From Desulfobacterales bacterium (GTDB taxonomy: Bacteria > Desulfobacterota > Desulfobacteria > Desulfobacterales > JAAELO01), in contig JAAELO010000822.1 in assembly GCA_024226555.1 (NCBI GenBank), positions 1-62,865 of the forward strand: DNA of 62,865 nucleotides, in the 5' to 3' direction. This document shows, one piece after another, positions 135 through 51,730 of this stretch (position 1 is its first letter; the number at the start of each line of letters is the position of its first letter). Made by a program: the position numbers and the translations under genes. The notes beneath the pieces were generated by a model that was given only the letters and a program-made list of their open reading frames with translations, was not told the origin of the DNA and searched no databases.

Positions 135-1091
135 TTACTGGCTGTCCCTGCATTTATAATGATGATTTAAGCGTTTTATTAATTTTAATATTATATTTTT
201 TAGATCCTCAGGATAAATTATTTCAGCACTATCAGTAAAATTCAGAAGCCATCTTGCAAAATAATCCAGTGAAAAAGTTATAAAACTCATCTCTATTTTA
301 TCCTTGTAAACTTCTTCCTTAACTAAACCGTGATAATATTTGCTATCACCCAGGTATTTTAAAGCATCTTTTTTAAATCTGATTTTGGTATTAACCAAAG
401 AAGCTTTATCAAAAAGATCCTTTATTAATGCAGACATTGTTTTTCTTTTTTTAACAGAAAAGTGTTCATCTATAATTTTTAGTTTTTTTATCCTGTCTAT
501 ACGAAAATCTCTGTAATCAGATCTCAACCTGCAATATGCTATCAAATGCCAGTTACTTGTATAAAAATATAATCCCAGTGGTTCTATAACCCTGATTGTA
601 GATTCATATTTATAATTTGAATGATAGTCTATCTCAAACAATTTGTTCTTACTTATTACATTCTGTATCTCAAACAGATAGTTATCTTTAGTTTGTTTGT
701 TATCAAAATTTCCAACCATCACTCTGGATTCAAGATTTGCAAGTTTTTCTTTCTGTCCCTTTGAAATTACAGATTTTATTTTATATAGTGATGACTCATA
801 GTTTTCTTTTATTTTATCATCTGTATGTTTCTCAGTTAACTTACTCCCAAACAGTAGTGCACTTGCTTCATCTTCAGTAAAAACAACGGGGGGCAAGTGA
901 TACCCATCAACTATAAAATATCCTTTACCATTTTCTGATCCAATAGGAACTCCGGAATCTTCCAGAGCTCTGATATCTCTGTAAACAGTTCTTATACTTA
1001 TTTCAAATCTATCAGAAATCTCTTTTGCAGATATAAATTGCTTTGATTGAAGTTGAACCAAAATTGCTGTTAATCTGTTTATTCTCTTCAT
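135..1091 (-). CDS. WYL-domain transcriptional regulator (YafY type)
   Basis: A 318-residue DNA-binding regulator. An N-terminal DeoR-like winged helix (about residues 5-60, with ISAKEISDRFEISIRTVYRDI as the recognition region) is followed by a WYL ligand-sensing domain (about 145-215; the signature appears as SNWHLIAYCRLR) and a C-terminal WCX-like extension. WYL proteins bind small ligands or nucleic acids and often control stress or defence genes, but no obvious target is adjacent here. Five bases before the start codon lies the end of repeat E1, whose terminal arm carries an AGAGG that serves as the only visible ribosome binding site. Family assignment is firm; the target is unknown. Confidence 0.9.
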   Translation of the reverse strand: MKRINRLTAILVQLQSKQFISAKEISDRFEISIRTVYRDIRALEDSGVPIGSENGKGYFIVDGYHLPPVVFTEDEASALLFGSKLTEKHTDDKIKENYESSLYKIKSVISKGQKEKLANLESRVMVGNFDNKQTKDNYLFEIQNVISKNKLFEIDYHSNYKYESTIRVIEPLGLYFYTSNWHLIAYCRLRSDYRDFRIDRIKKLKIIDEHFSVKKRKTMSALIKDLFDKASLVNTKIRFKKDALKYLGDSKYYHGLVKEEVYKDKIEMSFITFSLDYFARWLLNFTDSAEIIYPEDLKNIILKLIKRLNHHYKCRDSQ

Positions 1092-1096
1092 TTATA

Positions 1097-1336
1097 GGGA
1101 ACCTCTAATAATTAGAATTTTGATTGAAATTCAACGTTTATAAAAGCTTTTAGTTTTATAAAATCTCTGCATGAAAAAAAATAACGAGCCGATTCGTTTA
1201 TAAAACGCTTTTTATTTATAAACATACTACAGTTCTTTTTTTGAATAACTCAGTGTAATGCGGAGCATTCACAGCATCTACATTGATAAACGAGAACCTC
1301 AGTAGTTCGATTAAAAGTCGGTTATTAGAGATTCAC
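1097..1336 (+). repeat. MITE-like inverted-repeat element, copy E1
   Basis: Left arm is GGGAACCTCTAATAATTAG and the right arm reads TTATTAGAGATTC, complementary to the left end. The interior has AT-rich GTTTATAAAAGC-type palindromes and no reading frame. The first 75 bases match copy E6 (21503 onward) with three mismatches. The element fills the gap between the WYL gene start and the patatin gene end. Its right arm encodes the last residues of the patatin protein (ESLITDF and stop). Confidence 0.88.
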
Positions 1337-2171
1337 TATAGTTTTTTAAAAAAACCTCTGCATCTTTTTTTCCAATATTATATAAAGATAATAACCTGCC
1401 TTTATTTTTTTCTAATCTTTTAACCTTAAAAGGTACACTTGGTCTGATTACAATAACGTTACCAACTTCTTCTTGTTTTTCAATCTCTTCAAGCATTCTA
1501 TTATATATATTATGTCTGTTTTCAATCAAACTAACAAGTTCGGGATATTTATTATATTTTAGTCTTATTATTTTTTTAAACCTGAATGTTTTTTTTCTAT
1601 AACCTTTATTTTGTGTGAGAACTATAATATTTTTACTATTTCCATCTTCAATAGATTTCTTTAATGGAATTGCATCAGATAAACCACCATCAAGATAAGT
1701 TTTACCATTTATTATACTGAATTCTGAAACAAAAGGTATACTAGATGTGGCTTTTAAATATTCCATAAGATTCTGATTATTAAGATTATTCATTGAAAAA
1801 TATTCTGCTTCACCATTTTTACAGTTTGTCACTCCAACAACAAACTTTGTATCAGCTTTAAAAAATGATTCATAATCAAATGGAACAATTGAATTTGGAA
1901 GTTGATTAAACAGAAAATCAAAACCAAATATGTTTTTTTTGAAGATTAAATTTCTTAAACTTAAATATCTTTTGTCCTTAACAAAATCTATTGTAACTTT
2001 TTTATTCCTTCCTTTCTGTTTCGAAATATAGGAGGTTCCAATCACAGCGCCCGCTGAAACTCCTATAACATATGGAAATCGTGTATCATTTTCTAAAAAC
2101 GTCTCCAATACACCGGCAGTATATACACACCTCATACCACCACCTTCTAAAACAAGCCCCATATTAATCAT
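1311..2171 (-). CDS. Patatin-like phospholipase family protein
   Basis: A 286-residue serine lipid acyl hydrolase-type protein. It shows the glycine-rich oxyanion loop EGGGMRC (about residues 9-15), the nucleophile elbow GVSAG with Ser39, and the catalytic aspartate in DGG (Asp161), so the Ser-Asp dyad is complete. Length and order fit the bacterial YjjU-like patatins, thought to hydrolyse phospholipid or lysophospholipid esters; substrate cannot be read from sequence. No signal peptide is visible, so it is probably cytoplasmic. The final seven codons (ESLITDF) and the stop lie inside repeat E1, so the natural C-terminus was probably rewritten by the insertion. Confidence 0.9.
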   Translation of the reverse strand: MINMGLVLEGGGMRCVYTAGVLETFLENDTRFPYVIGVSAGAVIGTSYISKQKGRNKKVTIDFVKDKRYLSLRNLIFKKNIFGFDFLFNQLPNSIVPFDYESFFKADTKFVVGVTNCKNGEAEYFSMNNLNNQNLMEYLKATSSIPFVSEFSIINGKTYLDGGLSDAIPLKKSIEDGNSKNIIVLTQNKGYRKKTFRFKKIIRLKYNKYPELVSLIENRHNIYNRMLEEIEKQEEVGNVIVIRPSVPFKVKRLEKNKGRLLSLYNIGKKDAEVFLKNYSESLITDF

Positions 2172-2200
2172 TTTATACCTGCTGCCTGAAATGGATTAAA

Positions 2201-2303
2201 GGGAATCTCTAATAACTGTTATTTTTGCAAAATACTTCAATTATCAGATGTTCCCTGAAACAAATTCATCACATCAATTAAAATTCTGATTATTAGAAGT
2301 TTT
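2201..2303 (-). repeat. MITE-like element, copy E2 (short)
   Basis: Starts GGGAATCTCTAATAACTG and ends with ATTCTGATTATTAGAAG, the complement of the other arm type, so it is inverted relative to E1. About 100 bp, no reading frame. It lies between the divergent starts of the patatin gene and the ABC ATPase gene and could influence either promoter. Confidence 0.75.
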
Positions 2304-2372
2304 CATTCATAATTTGTCAATCTAATAAATTTAATGTAAGTATATTTCTTCGCAATTTATAAAAGGATTTAC

Positions 2373-3812
2373 ATGGAAAACTACCTGATTAAACTTAATA
2401 AAATTACAGCAAGATTATACGATAAGTTTATATTAAAAGATAGTACATGGAATCTAAAAAAAAATGAAAGTTGGGTTATACTGGGACCTAATGGTTCTGG
2501 TAAATCATCATTTGTTAGGACTCTTACTGGTAAGGTTCCTGTTGTTAAGGGTTCAATTGAGTATTCTTTAAACCCAAAATCAGATATAGCTATTGTTTCT
2601 TTTGAGGATTTAAAAATTCTCCTGCAAAAAGAGGACTTTCTTGAAGAATGCAGGAACTATAGCAATTCCAATTCCCAAACAACCGCTCTAAGTCTTCTCC
2701 AGATTAACGAAGATACAACAAACTTAAATAAATATATAAATGTTTTCCAACTAAATAATTTATTAAATAAAAATATTTTAGAACTTTCAACTGGAGAAAG
2801 GCGCAAATTTCTTATAGTAAAAGCTCTTCTTAAATCCCCGGATGTTCTGATATTAGATGAACCTTTTGAAGGACTGGATAAAAATTCAAAGGCTTCTTTA
2901 AAAGAAATTATCGACAATTTAATAGACAGGAACATACAGATTATGCTTGTAACTCACAGATTTGATGAAATTCCAGATAAAATAGAGAATATTCTTTATA
3001 TAGACAGCTTAAAGATCAAAGACAATGGAAATAAAAAAGATATACTTAATCGTTATTTTAATAAAAAGATTTTCCATAAAAAAACAGTTAAAAAAAACAT
3101 ATCCTATGGAAGTTCTTTAAAATTAAGATCTTTAGTTGAGATGAGAAATATCAACATTAAGTATGGAGATCATGTTGTTTTAGCAAACTTAACCTGGACA
3201 ATGAAGAGTGATGAAAACTGGAAAATCAGTGGACCAAACGGATCTGGCAAATCCACACTTTTAAAACTTATATCTGCAGATAACCTCCAGGCATATTCAA
3301 ACGAAATATACCTTTTTGGTAGGAAAAGAGGGACTGGTGAAAGCATATTTGATATAAAAAAAAGAATTGGTTTAGTGACACCAGAACTTCAACTACAATA
3401 CAGGAAAAAGATAACCGTTCTCAATGTTGTTATTTCAGGTTTTTTTGATTCAATTGGCTTATATCAACAACCATCAGAGATTCAAATAAACAGAGCTGTT
3501 GATGTTCTAAAAACAACAGGTTTGGATATAAAAAAAAGATTTGACCATCTATCTTATGGTGAACAAAGAGTTGTTCTTATATCAAGGGCTATTGTTAAAT
3601 CACCTGAAATACTGATTTTAGACGAGCCATGTCAGGGCCTTGATCCGGATAACAGAAATATAGTATTAAATCTATGTGACCAGATAGCTTTTAATACGGA
3701 TACAAGAATTTTATTCGTATCACACAATGAAGATGACAACCTTAAATGTATTAGCAACGAGCTAAAACTTAACAGCAATAGTAATAATGATTATGAAATA
3801 GCAAAGTTATGA
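2373..3812 (+). CDS. ModF-like ATP-binding protein with two ABC domains
   Basis: A 479-residue soluble protein with two complete ABC ATPase domains in tandem. Domain 1 has Walker A at residues 38-45 (GPNGSGKS), signature LSTGERR (138-144) and Walker B with EP at about 158-164. Domain 2 has Walker A at 287-294, signature LSYGEQR (393-399) and Walker B at about 413-419. Two cassettes, no membrane segment and this length match ModF (PhrA), an uncharacterised protein named from molybdate loci. No molybdate transporter genes are adjacent, so a transport role is not supported. It is followed 20 bp later by ung on the same strand. The family call is reasonable; function is open. Confidence 0.82.
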   Translation: MENYLIKLNKITARLYDKFILKDSTWNLKKNESWVILGPNGSGKSSFVRTLTGKVPVVKGSIEYSLNPKSDIAIVSFEDLKILLQKEDFLEECRNYSNSNSQTTALSLLQINEDTTNLNKYINVFQLNNLLNKNILELSTGERRKFLIVKALLKSPDVLILDEPFEGLDKNSKASLKEIIDNLIDRNIQIMLVTHRFDEIPDKIENILYIDSLKIKDNGNKKDILNRYFNKKIFHKKTVKKNISYGSSLKLRSLVEMRNINIKYGDHVVLANLTWTMKSDENWKISGPNGSGKSTLLKLISADNLQAYSNEIYLFGRKRGTGESIFDIKKRIGLVTPELQLQYRKKITVLNVVISGFFDSIGLYQQPSEIQINRAVDVLKTTGLDIKKRFDHLSYGEQRVVLISRAIVKSPEILILDEPCQGLDPDNRNIVLNLCDQIAFNTDTRILFVSHNEDDNLKCISNELKLNSNSNNDYEIAKL

Positions 3813-3832
3813 TTAAGAGAGGAAAAGATTAG

Positions 3833-4522
3833 ATGAGTATTAAATTAAATGAATCGTGGCGACAATATCTTGAGAAAGAGTTTAGTAAAGATTACATGGT
3901 ATCACTAAGAAATTTTTTAAAGGAGGAAAAGGGCAAAGGTAAAACAATATATCCTCAGGGAAGCGAATTTTTTAATGCTCTGGATACTACTAATTTTGAT
4001 CTTGTTAAAGTGGTCATTATCGGTCAGGATCCTTACCACGGCCCGGGCCAGGCTCACGGTTTATGTTTTTCTGTTCGTCATGGTATAAAACCACCACCAT
4101 CACTTGTCAATATTTTCAAAGAGATCGAAAGTGATCTTAATCTAAAGCAACCTGCACACGGATGCTTAACCTCCTGGGCAAAACAAGGTGTTTTACTTCT
4201 AAACAGTGTGTTAAGTGTTGAAAGAAATCTTGCTGCATCACACCAGGGAAAAGGTTGGGAAACTTTTACTGATAAAGTTATTGATGTTATCAATCAAAAT
4301 AGAGATGGAGTTGTATTTTTATTATGGGGTAGTTATGCTCAGAAAAAAGGAAAGATAATTGACCAAAACAGGCATCTTGTTTTGGAATCACCCCACCCAT
4401 CACCACTTTCAGCACATAGAGGATTTATGGGAAACAAACATTTCTCTAAAACCAATGATTATCTTAAAGAAAAAGGTGAAACAATTATTAACTGGAAATT
4501 ACCTGAGGTTGAGGAGTTCTAA
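3833..4522 (+). CDS. ung: Uracil-DNA glycosylase, family 1
   Basis: Removes uracil from DNA, starting base-excision repair. The 229-residue length is standard. The water-activating loop GQDPYHGPGQAHG carries the catalytic aspartate (Asp66), and the minor-groove intercalation loop HPSPLSAHRGF carries the catalytic histidine (His188). The start is preceded by GAGAGGAAAAGATTAG, giving a fair ribosome binding site. It probably shares a transcript with the ABC ATPase gene upstream. Its stop codon falls inside the degenerate left arm of repeat E4, so the last two or three residues may derive from the insertion. Confidence 0.97.
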   Translation: MSIKLNESWRQYLEKEFSKDYMVSLRNFLKEEKGKGKTIYPQGSEFFNALDTTNFDLVKVVIIGQDPYHGPGQAHGLCFSVRHGIKPPPSLVNIFKEIESDLNLKQPAHGCLTSWAKQGVLLLNSVLSVERNLAASHQGKGWETFTDKVIDVINQNRDGVVFLLWGSYAQKKGKIIDQNRHLVLESPHPSPLSAHRGFMGNKHFSKTNDYLKEKGETIINWKLPEVEEF

Positions 4523-4795
4523 TAATAAAAGTTTTATTTTATGGGGGATCTCAGTAAAGGGGTTCCCGATTATCTTTTTGTTGATATCTTTAGGGAATCT
4601 CTTCTAAGTAACACTTTTTATATATTATGTGTTATTAGGCAGTTAGGTTCCAGAATATCTATTCTGGAGGAGTCGCTAATAACTGATCTTTTTGCGAAAC
4701 ACAGATATAACAAAAATAAAACTGTAGTAAAATCAACCCTTTATTTTTTGTTATGCCTTGTTTTTCATCAAAAATTCTAATTATTAGAGGTTCCC
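4513..4795 (-). repeat. MITE-like composite element, copy E4
   Basis: The right end reads AATTCTAATTATTAGAGG then TTCCC, the perfect complement of the E1 left arm; the left end is a degenerate GGAGTTCTAATAAT. Inside it, 4593-4684 is a 92-bp block found again, inverted and with one mismatch, in E6 (21738-21829). That block contains a CCAGAAT...ATTCTGG hairpin. The ends overlap the stop codons of ung and of the BNR-repeat gene. No transposase is present. Confidence 0.82.
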
Positions 4796-5835
4796 TTTAA
4801 TCTAAAAATATTTGAACAGAAAGTATCTGCATATAAATATCCATCTTTGTACCCAAGGTCTTCAACATTTTTTACGGGGATATCTCCAGTTATATCTTTC
4901 CATGTTAACCCATTATCCTTGCTAAACCAAACAGAACCTCTATTATACCAAATGGGGTAGCTCTTGGAGGAAGAAAGAAATATCTCATTACTTCTTTTTG
5001 GATTTATACATACTGAAGTTATGTATTCAACAGTCTTTTCTCCAAACCTTTTCAGTTTTGGAAATGATCGTTTAAAATTCCTGCCATTATCTAAACTTAT
5101 ATATAAACCATCATCAAAAGCCGCATAAATTTTCCCATTACTATGTGATAAAATTTTTTGAACACTTTTTTCACTTATATCTTCATTTTTACATTTTGAT
5201 TGCTTCCAGGTTTTACCATAATTCTGTGTATACCAAAGGCCACCCCAATATAGACCTGCGTATAGTCTACCTGATTTTTTATCAAAACAGATAGATGGTA
5301 TCTCTTTACCATTAAAATCTTTTAATTTATAAAATGATTTTCCATAGTTATCACTTTTATAAAGAGAACCATAAAAATCACCTTTTCCAAAGCCATCTGT
5401 TTCTCCTTTTAAAATATGAGAAGCAACAACAATAACTTTACCGGTTTTACTGATCGCTATACTTTTATAATTTACATGCTTATAAAAGCTTAAATTTGCA
5501 ATTTTATTCCATTTTTTACCAGCAGTTTTACTTCTAAATAATCCAAGTGGTATTCCAGCAAACAAATCTGAACTATTTGACGGGTTTATAGCAAAGGATG
5601 CTATTTCTCTCGAAGCCAATCCATTGTTAATCGGTTTCCAAAGATCCCCTCTATTTATACTTTTATAAATACCAGATACATCAGAACATAAATATACTAC
5701 TTTAGAATTTTTATCATCAGGAGTTATATTAAGGAAAAGACCACCGCCACTAAAACCGAATTGTTCCCATTTTGAAGCCAGTGATATGTCATATAAAAAA
5801 ATGCATAAAAGCAAAATTTTAATAAAAGTTTTCAT
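4777..5835 (-). CDS. Secreted BNR/sialidase-like beta-propeller protein
   Basis: A 352-residue exported protein. Residues 1-20 form a signal peptide (MKTFIKILLLCIFLYDISLA). The rest holds repeated Asp-box-like motifs such as S.NRGDLW, S.DNGRNF, SKDNGLTW and TQNYGKTW, which mark a BNR/YCF48-type beta-propeller. Catalytic sialidase residues are not evident, so a binding or structural role is as likely as an enzyme. The last six residues (KGTSNN) and the TAG stop are encoded by the terminal arm of repeat E4, showing that the original 3' end was replaced. A TATAAT sits only 10 bases before the ATG, so the transcript may have almost no leader. Confidence 0.75.
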   Translation of the reverse strand: MKTFIKILLLCIFLYDISLASKWEQFGFSGGGLFLNITPDDKNSKVVYLCSDVSGIYKSINRGDLWKPINNGLASREIASFAINPSNSSDLFAGIPLGLFRSKTAGKKWNKIANLSFYKHVNYKSIAISKTGKVIVVASHILKGETDGFGKGDFYGSLYKSDNYGKSFYKLKDFNGKEIPSICFDKKSGRLYAGLYWGGLWYTQNYGKTWKQSKCKNEDISEKSVQKILSHSNGKIYAAFDDGLYISLDNGRNFKRSFPKLKRFGEKTVEYITSVCINPKRSNEIFLSSSKSYPIWYNRGSVWFSKDNGLTWKDITGDIPVKNVEDLGYKDGYLYADTFCSNIFRLKGTSNN

Positions 5836-6012
5836 AGTTATAAAAATTATACCACTTATTAAATTTTTAAAAAATAAAATTGCTCTGTTTTCATCTTCAA
5901 TCCCAGGATTTTATAAATTCTAAATTTTACTCTTATTTTTTTAGGAAATAAAATACAAGAGATGTCAGAAAAAGCATGCAAAACAACTTTTTCCAACATC
6001 AATTAAATACTT

Positions 6013-6189
6013 TTATCTATACGGGGGCCATCTATCCTGTCGATCAAGACTTTTCAAATAATCTATCTTTTCTTCAGGATAAAAGAAATCTCTGTTTCTC
6101 TTAAATGGAATCAGGTTTTTAAAGAAATCACTAATTTTTATGATATTTAATTGAATGTCATTAATTATTTTATAGCTGCATACTTTCAT
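6013..6189 (-). CDS. Small ORF 3 (58 residues), unknown
   Basis: A 58-codon frame preceded by GAGGTGATAC before its ATG, a good ribosome binding site. Its first 20 bases overlap the end of the 47-codon frame upstream, suggesting translational coupling. The product is basic and aromatic, ending DYLKSLDRQDRWPPYR, with no signal peptide or membrane helix. I do not recognise a family. The ribosome binding site and coupling are the only support that it is a gene. Confidence 0.45.
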   Translation of the reverse strand: MKVCSYKIINDIQLNIIKISDFFKNLIPFKRNRDFFYPEEKIDYLKSLDRQDRWPPYR

Positions 6190-6313
6190 GTATCACCTCA
6201 TGTTCATGGAATTTGAATTTAAACATCTCTTTAATTTTAATACTTCTAACTTTGTAATTCCTGTAATAATCTGCTCCCATCGTATTGGTTTGTACCTGTA
6301 AATAACTCTTCAT
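6170..6313 (-). CDS. Small ORF 2 (47 residues), unknown
   Basis: A 47-codon frame with the best ribosome binding site in the region: AGGAGG six bases before the ATG. The predicted peptide begins MKSYLQVQTNTMGADYYRNY and continues with a Lys/Phe/His-rich tail. It lies about 60 bases beyond the terminator that follows the 16-codon frame, so it would be expressed by read-through or from its own promoter. Weak similarity to the 16-residue peptide upstream (Y-I/L-Q ... G-D/A-D) is seen by eye only. Unknown function. Confidence 0.5.
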   Translation of the reverse strand: MKSYLQVQTNTMGADYYRNYKVRSIKIKEMFKFKFHEHEVIHESMQL

Positions 6314-6374
6314 CAAATGTTCCTCCTGTTTTATTATTAAAATTCAGATCAAATCTTTATTTAGATCTGACCAA

Positions 6375-6409
6375 CTAAAAAACCCGAATTAGATGATCTA
6401 ATCCGGGTT
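6375..6409 (-). terminator. Rho-independent terminator after the 16-codon ORF
   Basis: On the minus strand a 13-bp stem (AACCCGGATTAGA pairing with TCTAATTCGGGTT, one G-U pair) closes a 3-base loop and is followed by TTTTTT. It starts 30 bases after the stop of the 16-codon frame and lies between it and the 47-codon frame. Confidence 0.88.
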
Positions 6410-6438
6410 TATCTTATCACTTAATTTTATTGAGTTAA

Positions 6439-6489
6439 TTAAACCAGATCATCTCCTTCTGTTTGTATATATTTGGTATTTCTTGACAT
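6439..6489 (-). CDS. Small ORF 1: 16-residue peptide MSRNTKYIQTEGDDLV
   Basis: A 17-codon frame (with stop) lying alone between a promoter-like sequence and a strong terminator. GAGG lies nine bases before the ATG. The promoter-like TTGACA (6552-6547) with TATATT (6531-6526) or a slightly shifted -10 is upstream on the same strand. A 16-residue product is short for an enzyme or structural protein; a modified peptide precursor, a signal peptide-like factor or an attenuation leader are possible. There is no run of one amino acid as in classical attenuators, and no maturase gene nearby. Function unknown. Confidence 0.4.
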   Translation of the reverse strand: MSRNTKYIQTEGDDLV

Positions 6490-6525
6490 GATTTAATTCC
6501 TCATTAAAATTTTTATTTGCTGAAA

Positions 6526-6552
6526 AATATAATAAAAAAATCACAATGTCAA
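6526..6552 (-). promoter_or_regulatory. Promoter-like sequence for the small-ORF unit
   Basis: Perfect TTGACA at 6552-6547 followed by TATATT at 6531-6526 (15-base spacer), or TATTTT with a 17-base spacer. It points toward the 16-codon frame, whose start codon is at 6489. Confidence 0.55.
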
Positions 6553-6849
6553 ATTTTTCTGTAACTTTTTTACCTTTAAATCTATACGTACAAAGTTTTC
6601 TTCACATGAAATAGAAAATATAGGTATGGTGCTTACCTTCACCCATTCCAATAATGAACTCAAATATAATTTCAGGATAAAGTTAATAAAACATCTTCAT
6701 TTTATTTCTAATTTCAAATGATTTAACTAAAGCTTTTCCTGTAAATTATCAATGTTATGCCCGTCTTTTAAAGTCCTTAATAGCAAATCGGCGTGAAAAA
6801 GGCTTTTGTATAAAAACCACAAATTCGATTTTTTCAAAATATGTTTGTT

Positions 6850-6895
6850 ACACTTTTCAAAAGTGTACCTCCCGGGAGCCACCGGAGGTGTTTTT
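6850..6895 (+). terminator. Double hairpin with T-tract; end of a possible small RNA
   Basis: A perfect palindrome ACACTTTTCAAAAGTGT (6850-6866) is followed directly by a GC-rich stem, ACCTCCCGG with CCGGAGGT (6867-6889, one bulged C, loop GAGCCA), and then GTTTTT. This is a strong plus-strand intrinsic terminator. No plus-strand coding gene lies upstream as far as ung at 4522, so it probably ends a non-coding transcript that starts somewhere in about 6700-6790. Confidence 0.7.
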
Positions 6896-7379
6896 ATATA
6901 TTAATTTGTTTTCTACCAGTTTTATTTTGTAGTCTTATTTTCTCAAGTTGTATTAATCATAGTTGCATCGGCTTGCAATGTCGGTTGTGTATTTTATCTT
7001 TTATTTTTTTTTAATTCTCAGGAATGATGATCGGTCATAGATTTGAAATGCACACATTTATGCATAAAAAACACAAATATTGTTAGATAAATGTTAAAAT
7101 AATATAAAAAAGATTAAACTAAACATAATTTGAGTAAAAACGTAATTTTGAAGTTCTTATTACAGCTGGTTTTAGATAGAGATATATTCTGTTTTTTAAG
7201 ACACTTGTAGTTCTACTCTTATATAATTTATTTATTTCTTCTAACTTTATGAAAGGCTAATTACTAAATAGAGATTTTTTTATTGATTATTTTACCTAAT
7301 TACCTGAAAGATTTTAGTTATAGGTTTTTTTAATTTTGAACCTAATTGATTTAAATTTATCCGGAGGCTGGAAATAGTA
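6896..7379. other. Non-coding stretch upstream of the aminotransferase gene
   Basis: About 480 bp of AT-rich DNA with no plausible reading frame, RNA gene or repeat that I can support. It presumably contains the promoter of the aminotransferase gene, but no single -35/-10 pair stands out. The 300 bp before the double hairpin (6553-6849) is likewise without a convincing gene on either strand. Confidence 0.6.
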
Positions 7380-8720
7380 ATGCAACCAAAAGAAAATGTA
7401 TTTTACAGAAATTTACGTAAAAACTATCCTGTTGTAGACAAAGCTAAGGGGATTTATGTATGGGATAATAAGGGTAAAAAATACATAGATGGATCGGGTG
7501 GTGCTGTTGTAGTAAGTATTGGTCACAGTGTCCCTGAAATTCGAGAAGCTATGATAAAGCAGGCTGAAAAAGCTTCTTTTATTCATAGTAGTCATTTCAC
7601 AAGTGATGCTGTTTTGGAGTGTGCGGAACTTCTTTGTAATCTTACTCCTGAAAAAAATCTTAATAAGGTGTATTTTCTTTCCGGTGGATCTGAAGCTGTT
7701 GAATCAGCCATTAAACTTGTAAGACAATACTGGCGTGAGGCCGGGCAACCAGATAAATATAAAATTATTTCAAGATGGTCCAGTTTTCATGGAAATACAA
7801 CAGGAGCCTTAGCTCTTGGTGGTCATACTTCAAGAAGAAAGCATTATCTTGCGATAATGCAGTATACTCCTCATATTGAGCCTCCTTACTGTTTCAGGTG
7901 TGCATTTAATGAAACCCCGGATAATTGTTCACTTCAATGTGCTGATAATCTTGAGAGAGCAATTTTGCATGAAGGACCTGATTCTGTTGCAGCTTTCATA
8001 GCAGAGCCGGTTATTGGCGCTACGGCTGGTGCAATAATACCTATCGATGGATATTGGCAAAGAATCAGACAGATCTGTGATAAGTACGATATTAAATTGA
8101 TAGCTGATGAAGTTATGACAGGAATTGGAAGATGTGGTAAAAATTTCTGTATGGATCACTGGAATACTGTTCCTGATATAATAGTATTAGCAAAGGGTCT
8201 AAGCTCAGGATATACACCTCTTGGTGCAGTAATTGCTAAAGAGGAGATACACCAAACCATAAAAAGAGGTTCCGGACTGTTTGTCCATGGTCATACATTT
8301 GGTCAAAACCCTTTATCTGCAGCTGTAGGAGCTGCTGTTCTTAAGTATATAAATAAGAAAAATTTAATAGAAAGATCCCGGAAAATGGGGACTATATTCA
8401 ACAAGAAGCTTAAAGATGAATTATCTGACATTGATATAGTTGGGGATGTAAGAGGATTAGGTCTTTTTTCAGGAATAGAATTTGTTTGTGATAAAAATTC
8501 AAATGAATGCTTTGAGAATGATTTGAAGATTAATAGCCAGGTTGCTAAACAGGCATTTTCAAGGGGTTTGATAAGCTATCCAGGTGGTGGCGGTGTTGAT
8601 GGAATGAGTGGTGATCATATTTTACTTGCACCTCCACTTATTATTACTGAAAAACAGATTGATGAATTGGTTAGTATTTTAAAAAGATCTATTCTTGCAG
8701 TTCAGGGATCAATAGACTAA
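7380..8720 (+). CDS. Class III (omega-type) PLP aminotransferase
   Basis: A 446-residue fold-type I pyridoxal phosphate enzyme of the acetylornithine / omega-amino acid transaminase group. The PLP-binding lysine is Lys272 (LAKGLSSGYTPLG) and the ring-nitrogen aspartate is Asp243 (ADEVMTG). SGGSEAVESAIK (101-112) binds the cofactor phosphate. A four-cysteine insert, C171-x2-C-x8-C-x3-C187, occurs in the YhxA-like subgroup and may bind a metal. The start has GGAGG 12 bases upstream. It stands alone in its transcript, so the substrate cannot be inferred from neighbours. Repeat E5 starts one base after its stop codon. Confidence 0.9.
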   Translation: MQPKENVFYRNLRKNYPVVDKAKGIYVWDNKGKKYIDGSGGAVVVSIGHSVPEIREAMIKQAEKASFIHSSHFTSDAVLECAELLCNLTPEKNLNKVYFLSGGSEAVESAIKLVRQYWREAGQPDKYKIISRWSSFHGNTTGALALGGHTSRRKHYLAIMQYTPHIEPPYCFRCAFNETPDNCSLQCADNLERAILHEGPDSVAAFIAEPVIGATAGAIIPIDGYWQRIRQICDKYDIKLIADEVMTGIGRCGKNFCMDHWNTVPDIIVLAKGLSSGYTPLGAVIAKEEIHQTIKRGSGLFVHGHTFGQNPLSAAVGAAVLKYINKKNLIERSRKMGTIFNKKLKDELSDIDIVGDVRGLGLFSGIEFVCDKNSNECFENDLKINSQVAKQAFSRGLISYPGGGGVDGMSGDHILLAPPLIITEKQIDELVSILKRSILAVQGSID

Positions 8721-8721
8721 T

Positions 8722-8876
8722 GAGAACCTCTAATAATTGGATTTTTTATTGAAATACAGCGTTTATAAAAAATTTTTGTTTTATAAAGTTTACAGTTTTT
8801 TTCGTAATAATTAAGTAATTCGGTTAAAACAAACAAAACTAAAACCTTTTTTTATAGGCATTTATTAGAGATTACC
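8722..8876 (+). repeat. MITE-like element, copy E5
   Basis: Left arm GAGAACCTCTAATAATTGG, right arm TTATTAGAGATTACC; 155 bp, no reading frame. The inner sequence GTTTATAAA...AAAACAAACAAAACTAAA matches E6. It begins one base after the aminotransferase stop codon and lies between convergent genes, where its fold could act as a bidirectional terminator. Confidence 0.85.
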
Positions 8877-8933
8877 TAATTATTTATTAATTTTGAGATA
8901 AGAGCTTTGCTTTTAAAAAAAGCATAGCTTTTT

Positions 8934-10907
8934 TTATCTGTTTGAAGCCATTTTAATCAAAGCACCTACATCAATAATCAGACCGACCAAACCGTCAGAC
9001 ATTATAGCTCCACCTGAAATTCCAACAATATTTTTTATTCCTTCACCCAGGCTTTTTATAACAATTTGCTGTTTACCTATAAGCTCATCAACAATTAATG
9101 CGGCTTTATACTCGTCCTCTTCGACAACTACAACTAATTCATCGGATGATTTTTCGTAACTTTCACTTTCGAAAATATCCCTTAAACTAAAAAGAGGTAA
9201 AAGCTCACCCTGAATATTTATTGACCTTCCTTTATTCATAACTGTGCTTATTTGATTATTTTCAAGTTTATTTGATGTAATTATTGATAAAGTTGGGATT
9301 ATATATCTTTCTAATCCTACCCTGATTACCATTCCATCTATAATTGCAAGGGTTAGAGGAATGCTGATATTAAATAAACATCCTTTTCCCAATATCGAAT
9401 TGACAGCAATACTGCCTTTTAAATCATCAATACTGTTTTTGACCACATCCATTCCAACGCCCCGACCTGATATATCCGTAATTTTATCTGCTGTTGAAAA
9501 ACCAGGCTCAAATATAAGATTAATGAGTTCTTGTTCATTTAAAATTAAATCATGATGTATAAGTTTATTTTTTATAGCATGATCTCTAACTTTATTGGTA
9601 TCTATCCCATTACCATCATCTTCGATCTCTATATGAATATTTCCACCTTTTTGATAAGCTCTCATTTCTATTTTTGCTTTTGATTTTTTTTGTTTTTGAG
9701 TTCTCTCCTCAGGGCTTTCAATTCCATGATCAACTGCATTTCTAATAATATGAAGTAAAGGATCACCAATTTTATCAACAACATTTTTATCAAGCTCTGT
9801 ATCTTCGCCTTTCATAGAAAAAATGATATCTTTACCTGATTTTTTTGAAAGATCTCTAACAATTCTGCTCATTTTTTGAAATGTGGATTTCACAGGAAGC
9901 ATCCTTAAAGAAAGACCTATCTCCTGAAGCTCTCTTGTGATTTTATCCATGACAGATATATTTCTATTCAGATCTGGTGAGTTTAATTCAATAATCTCTT
10001 TAGATTGGGAAAGTATTGATTCTGCAATAACAAGTTCGCCTATCATATCCAACATTCTGTCTAATCTTTTTGAATTAACATTTATTGATTCAAGAATTTC
10101 AAATCTTGTATTCTTCTTCTCAATTGCAATGTCATTAACTATCTCTTTTTTTTCTATCTCGAATCTGTTTTTTGTAATACTTAAATTCGCAGGTTGTTCA
10201 CCAATTCCTTTATAATAAGAGAAAGTATTTTCTAACCAATCTTTTACAGACAGGTAAGTATCTATATCACTTAGAGCATCTTTACTTTCAAGAATATCTT
10301 CTGTTTTATGGCAGACACTTTCAACCTCAATTAGATTTAAAAAGCCTGCTTCACCCTTAAGTGTATGAATTGATCTTCTTAATTGAGTTATAGCTTCAGG
10401 GGAATTTGTGTTTTCTATTTCTAAAATTAGCTCCTCAATTTTGGGAAGTACATCACCCTGATGAACTAAAAACTGTGCGAACATATGTTCATCAAGATGT
10501 TCTGGCAATGAACCCGGGTGATTAAGTCCCATATCGGACTGTTCTGTTTCATGAACTTTTTCCTTTAATATATTTTCTGATTTTTCCTCGAACTTATCAT
10601 CACTTTTATATAGATAATTTTGGCTTTGATTTATCTTTTTGAGGTTTTGTTGAATATCAGTAATAGAAATACTGATTTTATCTATTTCGACAGCCTTTTC
10701 TTCTGGTGAGATATTATTTATGTTGTTAATAATTTTAATACAATTATCAACTTTTTCCTGAGTATTATCACTATAATTTGATACAGCCTTTGAAACTTTT
10801 TTCAAAATTGACAAAATTGACAAAACTTCATTTTCATCATCAAAATCAAGCATTACAAATTCTAAGGATATTTTCTCAACAATGTCATTTATTTCGTTAG
10901 AAATCAT
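8934..10907 (-). CDS. CheA-type hybrid-free chemotaxis histidine kinase, orphan
   Basis: A 657-residue kinase. The order is an N-terminal helical region of unknown role (1-130), an Hpt domain with the phospho-accepting histidine in SIHTLKGEAGF (His181), a dimerisation segment (about 270-335), an HATPase domain with the N box around Asn390, G1 motif DDGNGID (430-436) and GRGVGMD (about 487), and a C-terminal CheW-like domain (about 520-650). CheA normally phosphorylates CheY and CheB under control of receptors through CheW. None of those partners is adjacent, and no receiver domain is fused. It may serve a non-flagellar pathway (pili or second messenger). Confidence 0.9.
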   Translation of the reverse strand: MISNEINDIVEKISLEFVMLDFDDENEVLSILSILKKVSKAVSNYSDNTQEKVDNCIKIINNINNISPEEKAVEIDKISISITDIQQNLKKINQSQNYLYKSDDKFEEKSENILKEKVHETEQSDMGLNHPGSLPEHLDEHMFAQFLVHQGDVLPKIEELILEIENTNSPEAITQLRRSIHTLKGEAGFLNLIEVESVCHKTEDILESKDALSDIDTYLSVKDWLENTFSYYKGIGEQPANLSITKNRFEIEKKEIVNDIAIEKKNTRFEILESINVNSKRLDRMLDMIGELVIAESILSQSKEIIELNSPDLNRNISVMDKITRELQEIGLSLRMLPVKSTFQKMSRIVRDLSKKSGKDIIFSMKGEDTELDKNVVDKIGDPLLHIIRNAVDHGIESPEERTQKQKKSKAKIEMRAYQKGGNIHIEIEDDGNGIDTNKVRDHAIKNKLIHHDLILNEQELINLIFEPGFSTADKITDISGRGVGMDVVKNSIDDLKGSIAVNSILGKGCLFNISIPLTLAIIDGMVIRVGLERYIIPTLSIITSNKLENNQISTVMNKGRSINIQGELLPLFSLRDIFESESYEKSSDELVVVVEEDEYKAALIVDELIGKQQIVIKSLGEGIKNIVGISGGAIMSDGLVGLIIDVGALIKMASNR

Positions 10908-18519: not shown

Positions 18520-18708
18520 GTGGCTCGAGTAACTGTAGAAGATTGCCTCAATAGAGTTCCTAATAGATTTACATTGGTACATATGGCTGCTAAACGTGTT
18601 AGACAACTGCGTGATGGAGCAGACTATGTAATTGATGATAATAAAGGTAATGAAGATGTTGTTATGGCCTTAAGAGAAATAGCTGAAGGCAAAATAACAC
18701 AAAAATAA
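18520..18708 (+). CDS. rpoZ: RNA polymerase omega subunit
   Basis: A 62-residue protein that chaperones the beta-prime subunit during RNA polymerase assembly. The omega signature is clear: [20 protein letters not shown], then [12 protein letters not shown] and [13 protein letters not shown]. Translation starts at GTG, with AAGGAGATAGAT as the ribosome binding site. It is usually paired with gmk or spoT, which are not here. A terminator follows. Confidence 0.95.
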
Positions 18709-50857: not shown

Positions 50858-51730
50858 TTATAATGTGTACTTCTTACCGTAACCCCTTGGTGTTATCATA
50901 AAATTCATATATTCACTGGTTGTACTGTTACCGACAAAAACAGTTGTAAGCATATCCACATCTGCATGATCAAGATTACCAAGAGTTGTTATCTTAACAC
51001 TCTCTTCCTCTCTCATTGCACTTTTAACAATTCCAACAGGTGTTTCAGGATCACGGTATTTTAAAATAATTTCCTGGGCTTTACCAAGCTGCCAGTCTCT
51101 TTTTTTACTCTTTGGATTGAACAGAACAATTGAAAAGTCTGCCATTGCTGCACCTTCAACTCTTTTTTCGATCTGCTTCCACGGTGTTAGAAGGTCACTG
51201 AGACTAATTACTGCAAAATCGTGCGTGAGAGGTGCTCCTAAAAGAGATGCACCCGATGAAAGAGCTGGTATTCCAGGAATAACTTCAATTTGAAGTGAGA
51301 ACTTTCTTTCAAGTGCTGTTGCTTCATGGGCTGATCTTATAATTGGGATATCTTTTTGTTCACAAATTTCGAAGGCAAGCCCTGCCATTGCATATATTCC
51401 GGGATCTCCACTTGAAATTATTACAGTATTTTTTCCACCCAATGCAGAATCAATAGCTGCCTGAACTCTATCAACCTCTTTTTTCATGGACGTGCTGATG
51501 ATTGTCTTTCCCTCAACAAGTTCCTTAATAAGCTCAATATAAGTTGTGTAACCAACAATAATATCCGCACTTTCGATTATGTCAAAAGCCTTCTTTGACA
51601 TATGGTCGATGTCACCAGGGCCAATCCCAACTATATAGAGGTTTTTGCTATCGCTATTGTCACATTTTTCGTTTTGGTCTTTGGTATCAGTAGTTTCCCC
51701 TGACTCGCCAGTATCGCTGCTGCTTCGCAT
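50858..51730 (-). CDS. cbiH: Precorrin-3B / cobalt-precorrin-3 C17-methyltransferase
   Basis: Catalyses C17 methylation and ring contraction in corrin synthesis. A 290-residue SAM methyltransferase of the tetrapyrrole family: NLYIVGIGPGD (about 31-41), STSMKKEVDR, SSGDPGIYAMA and VIPGIPALSSGASLLGAPL. The first 30 residues are an unusual Ser/Asp/Glu/Thr-rich stretch encoded over the last 100 bases of cbiG in another frame; no other start codon is available closer to the conserved part. Confidence 0.93.
   Translation of the reverse strand: MRSSSDTGESGETTDTKDQNEKCDNSDSKNLYIVGIGPGDIDHMSKKAFDIIESADIIVGYTTYIELIKELVEGKTIISTSMKKEVDRVQAAIDSALGGKNTVIISSGDPGIYAMAGLAFEICEQKDIPIIRSAHEATALERKFSLQIEVIPGIPALSSGASLLGAPLTHDFAVISLSDLLTPWKQIEKRVEGAAMADFSIVLFNPKSKKRDWQLGKAQEIILKYRDPETPVGIVKSAMREEESVKITTLGNLDHADVDMLTTVFVGNSTTSEYMNFMITPRGYGKKYTL

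Follow-up and report, generated by a model that had tools for sequence, protein, structure and literature searches.

The window, by which we mean the whole 62,865-nucleotide stretch of DNA analyzed here, probably carries a ribosome-mediated transcription attenuator of the general translation-stress type, whose target is an operon of two genes encoding lineage-restricted small proteins. It corresponds to bases 1-62865 of a 137-kb contig, has a G+C content of 32%, and belongs to a 7.7-Mb genome that is distributed over 904 contigs. The elements of the putative attenuator occupy the minus strand of a 1544-nt gap (5836-7379) that, in agreement with an earlier note on a stretch of about 1.5 kb, contains no ordinary gene. 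Along this strand, a candidate promoter is followed by a 16-codon open reading frame (ORF), a terminator, a second hairpin, a 47-codon ORF and a 58-codon ORF, and the corresponding features are as follows.

7380-8720, plus strand: class-III aminotransferase gene (Pfam), which bounds the gap
6547-6552, minus strand: candidate -35 element TTGACA (promoter-like match scan)
6524-6529, minus strand: candidate -10 element TATTTT, 17-nt spacer (promoter-like match scan)
6484-6511, minus strand: RNA segment 1, which pairs with 6451-6423 as hairpin 1:2
6498-6502, minus strand: Shine-Dalgarno (SD) sequence for the leader ORF, GAGGA, which the scoring rule counts as a 4-nt match
6439-6489, minus strand: leader ORF of 16 codons, MSRNTKYIQTEGDDLV, ATG at 6489 and stop codon at 6441-6439
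6441-6455, minus strand: RNA segment 2, GAGAUGAUCUGGUUU, the antiterminator strand (computed pairing)
6380-6410, minus strand: intrinsic terminator 3:4, then six U (6382-6377) (folding, terminator scan)
6391-6404, minus strand: RNA segment 3, GGAUUAGAUCAUCU, which covers the 5' arm and the loop of the terminator together with its first 3' bases
6347-6372, minus strand: second hairpin, 10 pairs, -11.2 kcal/mol, with 0 of 200 shuffles as stable
6322-6327, minus strand: SD sequence AGGAGG of the 47-codon ORF, a 6-nt match
6170-6313, minus strand: 47-codon ORF, with SD sequence
6193-6199, minus strand: SD sequence GAGGTGA of the 58-codon ORF, a 7-nt match inside the 47-codon ORF
6013-6189, minus strand: 58-codon ORF, with SD sequence
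4777-5835, minus strand: sortilin/BNR-type gene (Pfam), which bounds the gap

The leader and everything behind it would be transcribed from the candidate promoter, with a start expected near 6516-6517. The earlier note had paired TTGACA with TATATT. Both motifs are indeed present, but they are separated by only 15 nt, whereas TATTTT gives the spacer of 17 nt, and promoter-like matches between 4500 and 8000 occur at the level of chance (20 observed versus 18.6 in shuffled sequences). The 16-residue frame was found with its start, stop and ribosome binding site as previously described. In the plain codon score its own frame is the best of those available, for an ORF that is very short, and the encoded peptide has no run of codons for one regulated amino acid.

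Three hairpins can be computed for this leader, and they are mutually exclusive in a layout (1:2, 2:3 and 3:4) that resembles that of trp. Segment 1 includes the leader SD sequence. Hairpin 1:2 joins the SD and start region of the leader ORF to the end of the same ORF and the bases beyond, such that the SD sequence is hidden, and it reaches -16.8 kcal/mol (z -3.5; 2 of 200 shuffles as stable). Segment 2 spans the last codons of the leader as far as the first base of the stop codon, and its pairing with segment 3 comprises 14 pairs with an energy between -16.5 and -17.2 kcal/mol. The terminator itself is a stem of 14 pairs, one of them G-U, closed by a loop of 3 (-17.7 to -18.0 kcal/mol, z -4.8), and none of 200 shuffles proved as stable. 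The terminator is where the earlier note had put it, and nothing in the analysis supports calling it leaky. The second hairpin follows the terminator and precedes the 47-codon ORF, and an AGATC motif is common to both hairpins.

When the terminator was held fixed and the leader was shuffled 3000 times, 8 shuffles gave a 2:3 pairing as strong as the observed one, 29 gave a 1:2 folding as good, and none gave both at the observed strengths. Compared with random segments of the window, 69 of 4996 pair with the terminator arm as strongly, a count that partly includes segments of the locus itself and is inflated by an unknown share because the best segment (-34.8) must come from the surroundings of the terminator itself. 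Only one other hairpin in the whole window passes the strict terminator rule; there, pairing of the upstream region with the terminator arm reaches 0.45 of full strength, versus 0.93 at the leader. As a separate observation, searches for the segment-2 motif with up to three mismatches returned 131 forward and 142 reverse occurrences, compared with 24 and 39 for controls.

The effect of translation was modeled by moving a masked ribosome footprint along the leader one codon at a time, using a main footprint of 12/15 and two other shapes. Before the 3' arm of the terminator is made, the probability of pairing 2:3 is 0.71-0.89 when the P site is at codons 1-6, as opposed to 0.01 without a ribosome and 0.00 at codons 7-17; with the two alternative footprints the border shifts to after codon 5 or codon 7. 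Once the 3' arm is complete, terminator 3:4 forms with a probability of 0.88-0.96 in every modeled ribosome state, and therefore the switch, if real, would be kinetic. A coarse measure of switching, the fraction of 5' arm bases that are paired upstream, gave 0.17, a value reached by 125 of 2000 shuffles and not significant. An energy measure, devised after the coarse measure had failed, gives the energy that holds the 5' arm as 11.2, 9.5, 9.6, 8.4, 5.3 and 4.2 kcal/mol with the ribosome at codons 1 through 6, and as 3.0-3.3 kcal/mol elsewhere (3.3 without a ribosome and 3.0 at the stop codon). The resulting switch, taken as codon 2 versus no ribosome or stop, is 6.2, a value attained in 1 of 2000 shuffles, and the hold at codon 2 alone was attained in 10 of 2000.

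Applied to the Escherichia coli trp leader, the same energy measure peaks at codon 2 (2.1) and again at codons 10-11 (1.7-1.8), which are the two UGG codons. The switch at codon 10 is 1.5 and has the right direction, and 50 of 800 shuffles reach it. Thus, on an attenuator that is proven, the measure changes in the expected sense but is not decisive, and the layout in the window exceeds that of trp. At the locus, a leader ORF with a ribosome binding site lies upstream of an intrinsic terminator, and by computation an antiterminator that shares a strand with this terminator is set by the position of the ribosome, with the reservation that the coarse measure does not reach significance.

Of the alternatives, the one that survives best, although we consider it doubtful, holds that the terminator is a plain one that closes a short transcript, either a small mRNA or a small RNA with the 16-codon ORF, and that the small genes, if real, use a weak promoter of their own. 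The 2:3 complementarity would then be a by-product of the terminator, whose stem is nearly palindromic, which is why AGATNATCT recurs. This reading gains from the strength of the terminator, which on the finished RNA is favored at equilibrium in all modeled states, and from the outcome of the coarse measure. It does not account for the fact that the complementary segment at the end of the leader ORF also pairs with the start of that ORF, a combination that none of the 3000 leader shuffles reproduced, and our scan found no promoter-like site on the minus strand between the terminator and the 47-codon ORF.

Whether the attenuator would have genes to control depends on the two frames behind the terminator. 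Both were found as the earlier note had claimed, the 47-codon frame with its AGGAGG and the 58-codon frame with a GAGG of its own, and they overlap by 20 bases; the former has an alternative TTG start one codon upstream. A rather unlikely reading treats them as chance or decayed frames behind an ordinary terminator in a repeat-rich gap, and their codon usage speaks for it. The codon-usage scores are -4.9 and -1.6 bits per 100 nt for the 47- and 58-codon frames, respectively. For comparison, 58-codon pieces taken from long genes have their 1st percentile at -0.6, and 156 shadow ORFs have their median at -9 and their 90th percentile at 0.5. In the plain codon score, the 47-codon frame falls at about the 1st-5th percentile of gene pieces and the 58-codon frame just above the 5th, and in each ORF another frame beats its own. 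Such usage argues against long residence of either frame as an ordinary gene. The same reading is favored by the lack of homologues in the collections searched (below) and by the adjoining part of the gap, which is a mosaic of genome-wide repeats.

The translation signals argue in the other direction. Among 41 genes checked (of 52 long ORFs, 11 being left out), 12 lack an SD match of at least 3 nt, 8 have a match of 3 nt, 7 of 4, 12 of 5 and 2 of 7; none has a match of 6 nt, and the two small frames themselves reach 6 and 7 nt. Exactly three minus-strand ORFs of at least 14 codons in the gap have an SD match of at least 4 nt, namely the leader, 47- and 58-codon ORFs, and the plus strand has four short SD-preceded ORFs of 14-32 codons. 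When the gap was shuffled 1500 times and both strands were considered, an SD-preceded ORF of at least 45 codons appeared in 20.6% of cases and one with an SD match of at least 6 nt in 1.5%, but an adjacent pair of comparable ORFs appeared in none. Moreover, the DNA between 5990 and 6700 has just two other matches in its own genome, both of them short. Matches to the leader region elsewhere in the genome lie inside an ORF (C847) and in an intergenic repeat area (C58), and a match in C826 lies antisense to a 504-codon ORF. Predictions by AlphaFold made without an alignment consist of one helix for the 47-residue protein (pLDDT 89, pTM 0.55) and two helices for the 58-residue protein (pLDDT 70, pTM 0.34).

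The repeats of the gap lie upstream of the promoter, at 6753-6974 and 6589-6617, and are short and REP-like. They recur in at least 54 other places of the genome with 75-94% identity over 29-109 bases, 40 of 210 candidates having been scored, and a Y1_Tnp (IS200-like) transposase is located near such repeats (L005, 425-1108). The repeat area also contains a terminator-like hairpin with a long loop (6866-6890, plus strand; ACCTCC...GGAGGTGTTTTT), which is not listed by the terminator scan, where loops of up to 8 are admitted. Elsewhere in the window, a 62-codon ORF with a strong coding score (18520-18708, plus strand) matches RNA polymerase Rpb6/omega (PF01192, E 8e-20), and an intergenic ORF of 58 codons whose coding score is positive (51117-51293, plus strand) has no Pfam match at E<=0.1.

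The earlier observation that no family is recognized holds across every profile collection consulted. Neither small protein matches Pfam (DUF1127 included) or PADLOC, and neither matches a solved structure; the only hits are at the level of chance, for the 58-residue protein in NCBIfam (E 0.18) and for the 47-residue protein in PHROGs (E 0.13). Nor does the window contain an Rfam match at the gathering score. The best match below threshold, to L20_leader, was rejected; it scores 24.7 bits against a gathering score of 58.7 (E 0.006 in a search of 261 bases), and the next gene downstream is of the BNR type.

Relatives were sought among 57 other genomes, all related at the order level only, and among 389 genomes of the order. 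With the own genome included, the 58-residue frame has some match at E<=1 in 33 of 58 genomes (best non-self 0.022) and at E<=0.02 in 8 of 389, itself among them (best other 0.00185). For the 47-residue frame the corresponding figures are 11 of 58, including itself (best other 0.0034), and 3 of 389, including itself, where the other two have a stop codon inside the frame of the match. For the 58-residue frame, an exact peptide pattern was met in 160 stretches of GTDB contigs and 14 times in viral contigs, scans that detect close relatives only, and none of these matches was confirmed; phages and plasmids hold no homologue of it. The 47-residue frame has nothing convincing in viral contigs or plasmids and two unconvincing places in phages at E about 10, and the DNA of 5990-6700 has no match in phages in the distant mode. 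In the 389 genomes of the order, with two candidates scored in each, the leader region beyond the locus itself has matches of 19-41 bases only, among which the one in C826 was inspected.

The earlier note had left the choice between a leader-peptide and a peptide-precursor unit. The first gains support, in that segment 2 can pair either with the start region of the ORF or with the 5' arm of the terminator; the second does not. A regulated leader followed by two small, coupled ORFs could in principle represent a peptide-precursor (RiPP-like) or toxin-antitoxin unit, and control of a toxin-antitoxin pair by an upstream ORF (uORF) is known for toiL-topAI-yjhQ of E. coli, according to the available part of PMC12121999. 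We nevertheless judge this improbable, since no recognizable modification enzyme is present among seven neighbors, in line with the earlier note, and no known toxin-antitoxin or defense family profile in Pfam, NCBIfam or PADLOC matches either protein beyond chance. Specifically, Pfam assigns the seven neighbors scanned (135-10907) to a WYL-domain regulator, a patatin, a two-domain ABC ATPase, a uracil-DNA glycosylase, a sortilin/BNR-type protein, a class-III aminotransferase and a CheA-like kinase, and none is a recognizable peptide-maturation enzyme. The nearest ABC protein, the two-domain ATPase, is encoded on the opposite strand 2.2 kb away.

Downstream of the leader there are no amino-acid biosynthesis genes, and the next gene, of the BNR type, begins 177 nt beyond the 58-codon ORF. 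This gene has a TATAAT immediately before its ATG. A tRNA search of the whole window found none. For the neighborhood of the aminotransferase gene, GTDB contigs gave 4 distant loci.

The weakest alternative, which we hold to be highly improbable, makes the 58-codon ORF a relic or regulatory offshoot of an internal helical segment of an enzyme that, judging from its sequence, we take to be PPi-dependent phosphofructokinase. Residues 7-53 of the ORF align with one segment of this enzyme in several genomes of the same order, and with a profile of nine such segments none of 20,000 shuffles scores as high as the ORF (E 0.00097 in 20,001). By our estimate, the chance is perhaps 0.2-1% after correction for the fact that the family was picked after a search of many genomes. 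We did not accept this origin, and treat the resemblance as coincidence, because the enzyme of the same genome resembles the ORF less (14 of 51 residues identical in a protein-level comparison), the resemblance is confined to one internal segment with no other part of the enzyme found in the gap, and a second, different protein group matches about equally well.

For the attenuator that we prefer, the computed pairings suggest three outcomes. A ribosome that reaches the stop codon of the leader would cover segment 2, leaving 3:4 to pair and transcription to stop. If no ribosome is loaded, 1:2 would pair and hide the SD sequence, and the terminator would form as well. If a ribosome is held at about the first five or six codons, however, segment 1 would be covered and segment 2 would be free to pair with segment 3 before segment 4 is made, such that transcription would read through into the 47- and 58-codon genes, whose translation would be coupled. 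Because the leader lacks a run for one amino acid, what it senses is likely to be a general slowing of initiation or of early elongation, which might be caused by ribosome-targeting compounds or by a shortage of charged tRNA rather than by one amino acid. A further step, which we offer as speculation that is more likely wrong than right, is that a ribosome held at the start of the leader switches on a young, lineage-restricted pair of small proteins with an action on translation or growth, such as that of a growth brake released by stress.

If the attenuator interpretation is right, attenuators composed of a leader ORF and competing hairpins can reveal orphan small proteins. Such a mark would flag an expressed and regulated unit despite the absence of homologues and poor codon usage, and it would predict when the genes are made, namely under translation stress, which is the clue usually missing for orphan small proteins.

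The attenuation mechanism is of a known kind, and what is new is its orphan two-gene target. The E. coli trp leader forms three mutually exclusive hairpins, 1:2, 2:3 and 3:4. The locus shares with trpL a leader ORF, an intrinsic terminator and an in-silico measure that switches in the right direction, but it lacks both a cognate codon run and biosynthetic genes downstream. Unlike in trpL, segment 1 here is the SD and start region, and hence the first five or six codons are the responsive ones. This position and the lack of a codon run fit drug- or stress-type leaders on which ribosomes are stopped at or near the start codon.

Further parallels are found among such leaders. In Bacillus subtilis bmrB-bmrCD, slow translation of the leader caused by ribosome-targeting drugs favors an anti-terminator over an intrinsic terminator, and an anti-anti-terminator is predicted too, as given in the accessible part of PMC4191407. 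These three elements and the leader ORF have computed counterparts at our locus; bmrB differs in having 53 codons, a terminator inside bmrB and a drug exporter as its target (PMC4191407, same part). The mef(E)L leader of mef(E)/mel has in common with ours a very short peptide (8 residues there), stem-loops and a Rho-independent terminator, but it belongs to a Gram-positive mobile resistance element and controls macrolide efflux, as far as the available text of PMC4335068 describes it. In Sinorhizobium meliloti uORF-duf1127, a uORF likewise governs a small protein gene, a hairpin is predicted around the SD sequence of the uORF, and the attenuator responds to inhibition of translation; there, the target is DUF1127, and the available sections of PMC12218461 propose Rho in place of an intrinsic terminator.

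Finally, the toiL-topAI-yjhQ system of E. coli also relies on a uORF, which senses stalled ribosomes and has a toxin-antitoxin target. In the accessible portion of this eLife report (PMC12121999), toiL acts on translation of topAI, then through Rho, and not on an intrinsic terminator, and several uORFs are described with ribosomes stopped at or near the start. If the stress-sensor reading of our leader is true, the locus would represent an intrinsic-terminator counterpart of toiL-topAI whose genes are without known relatives.
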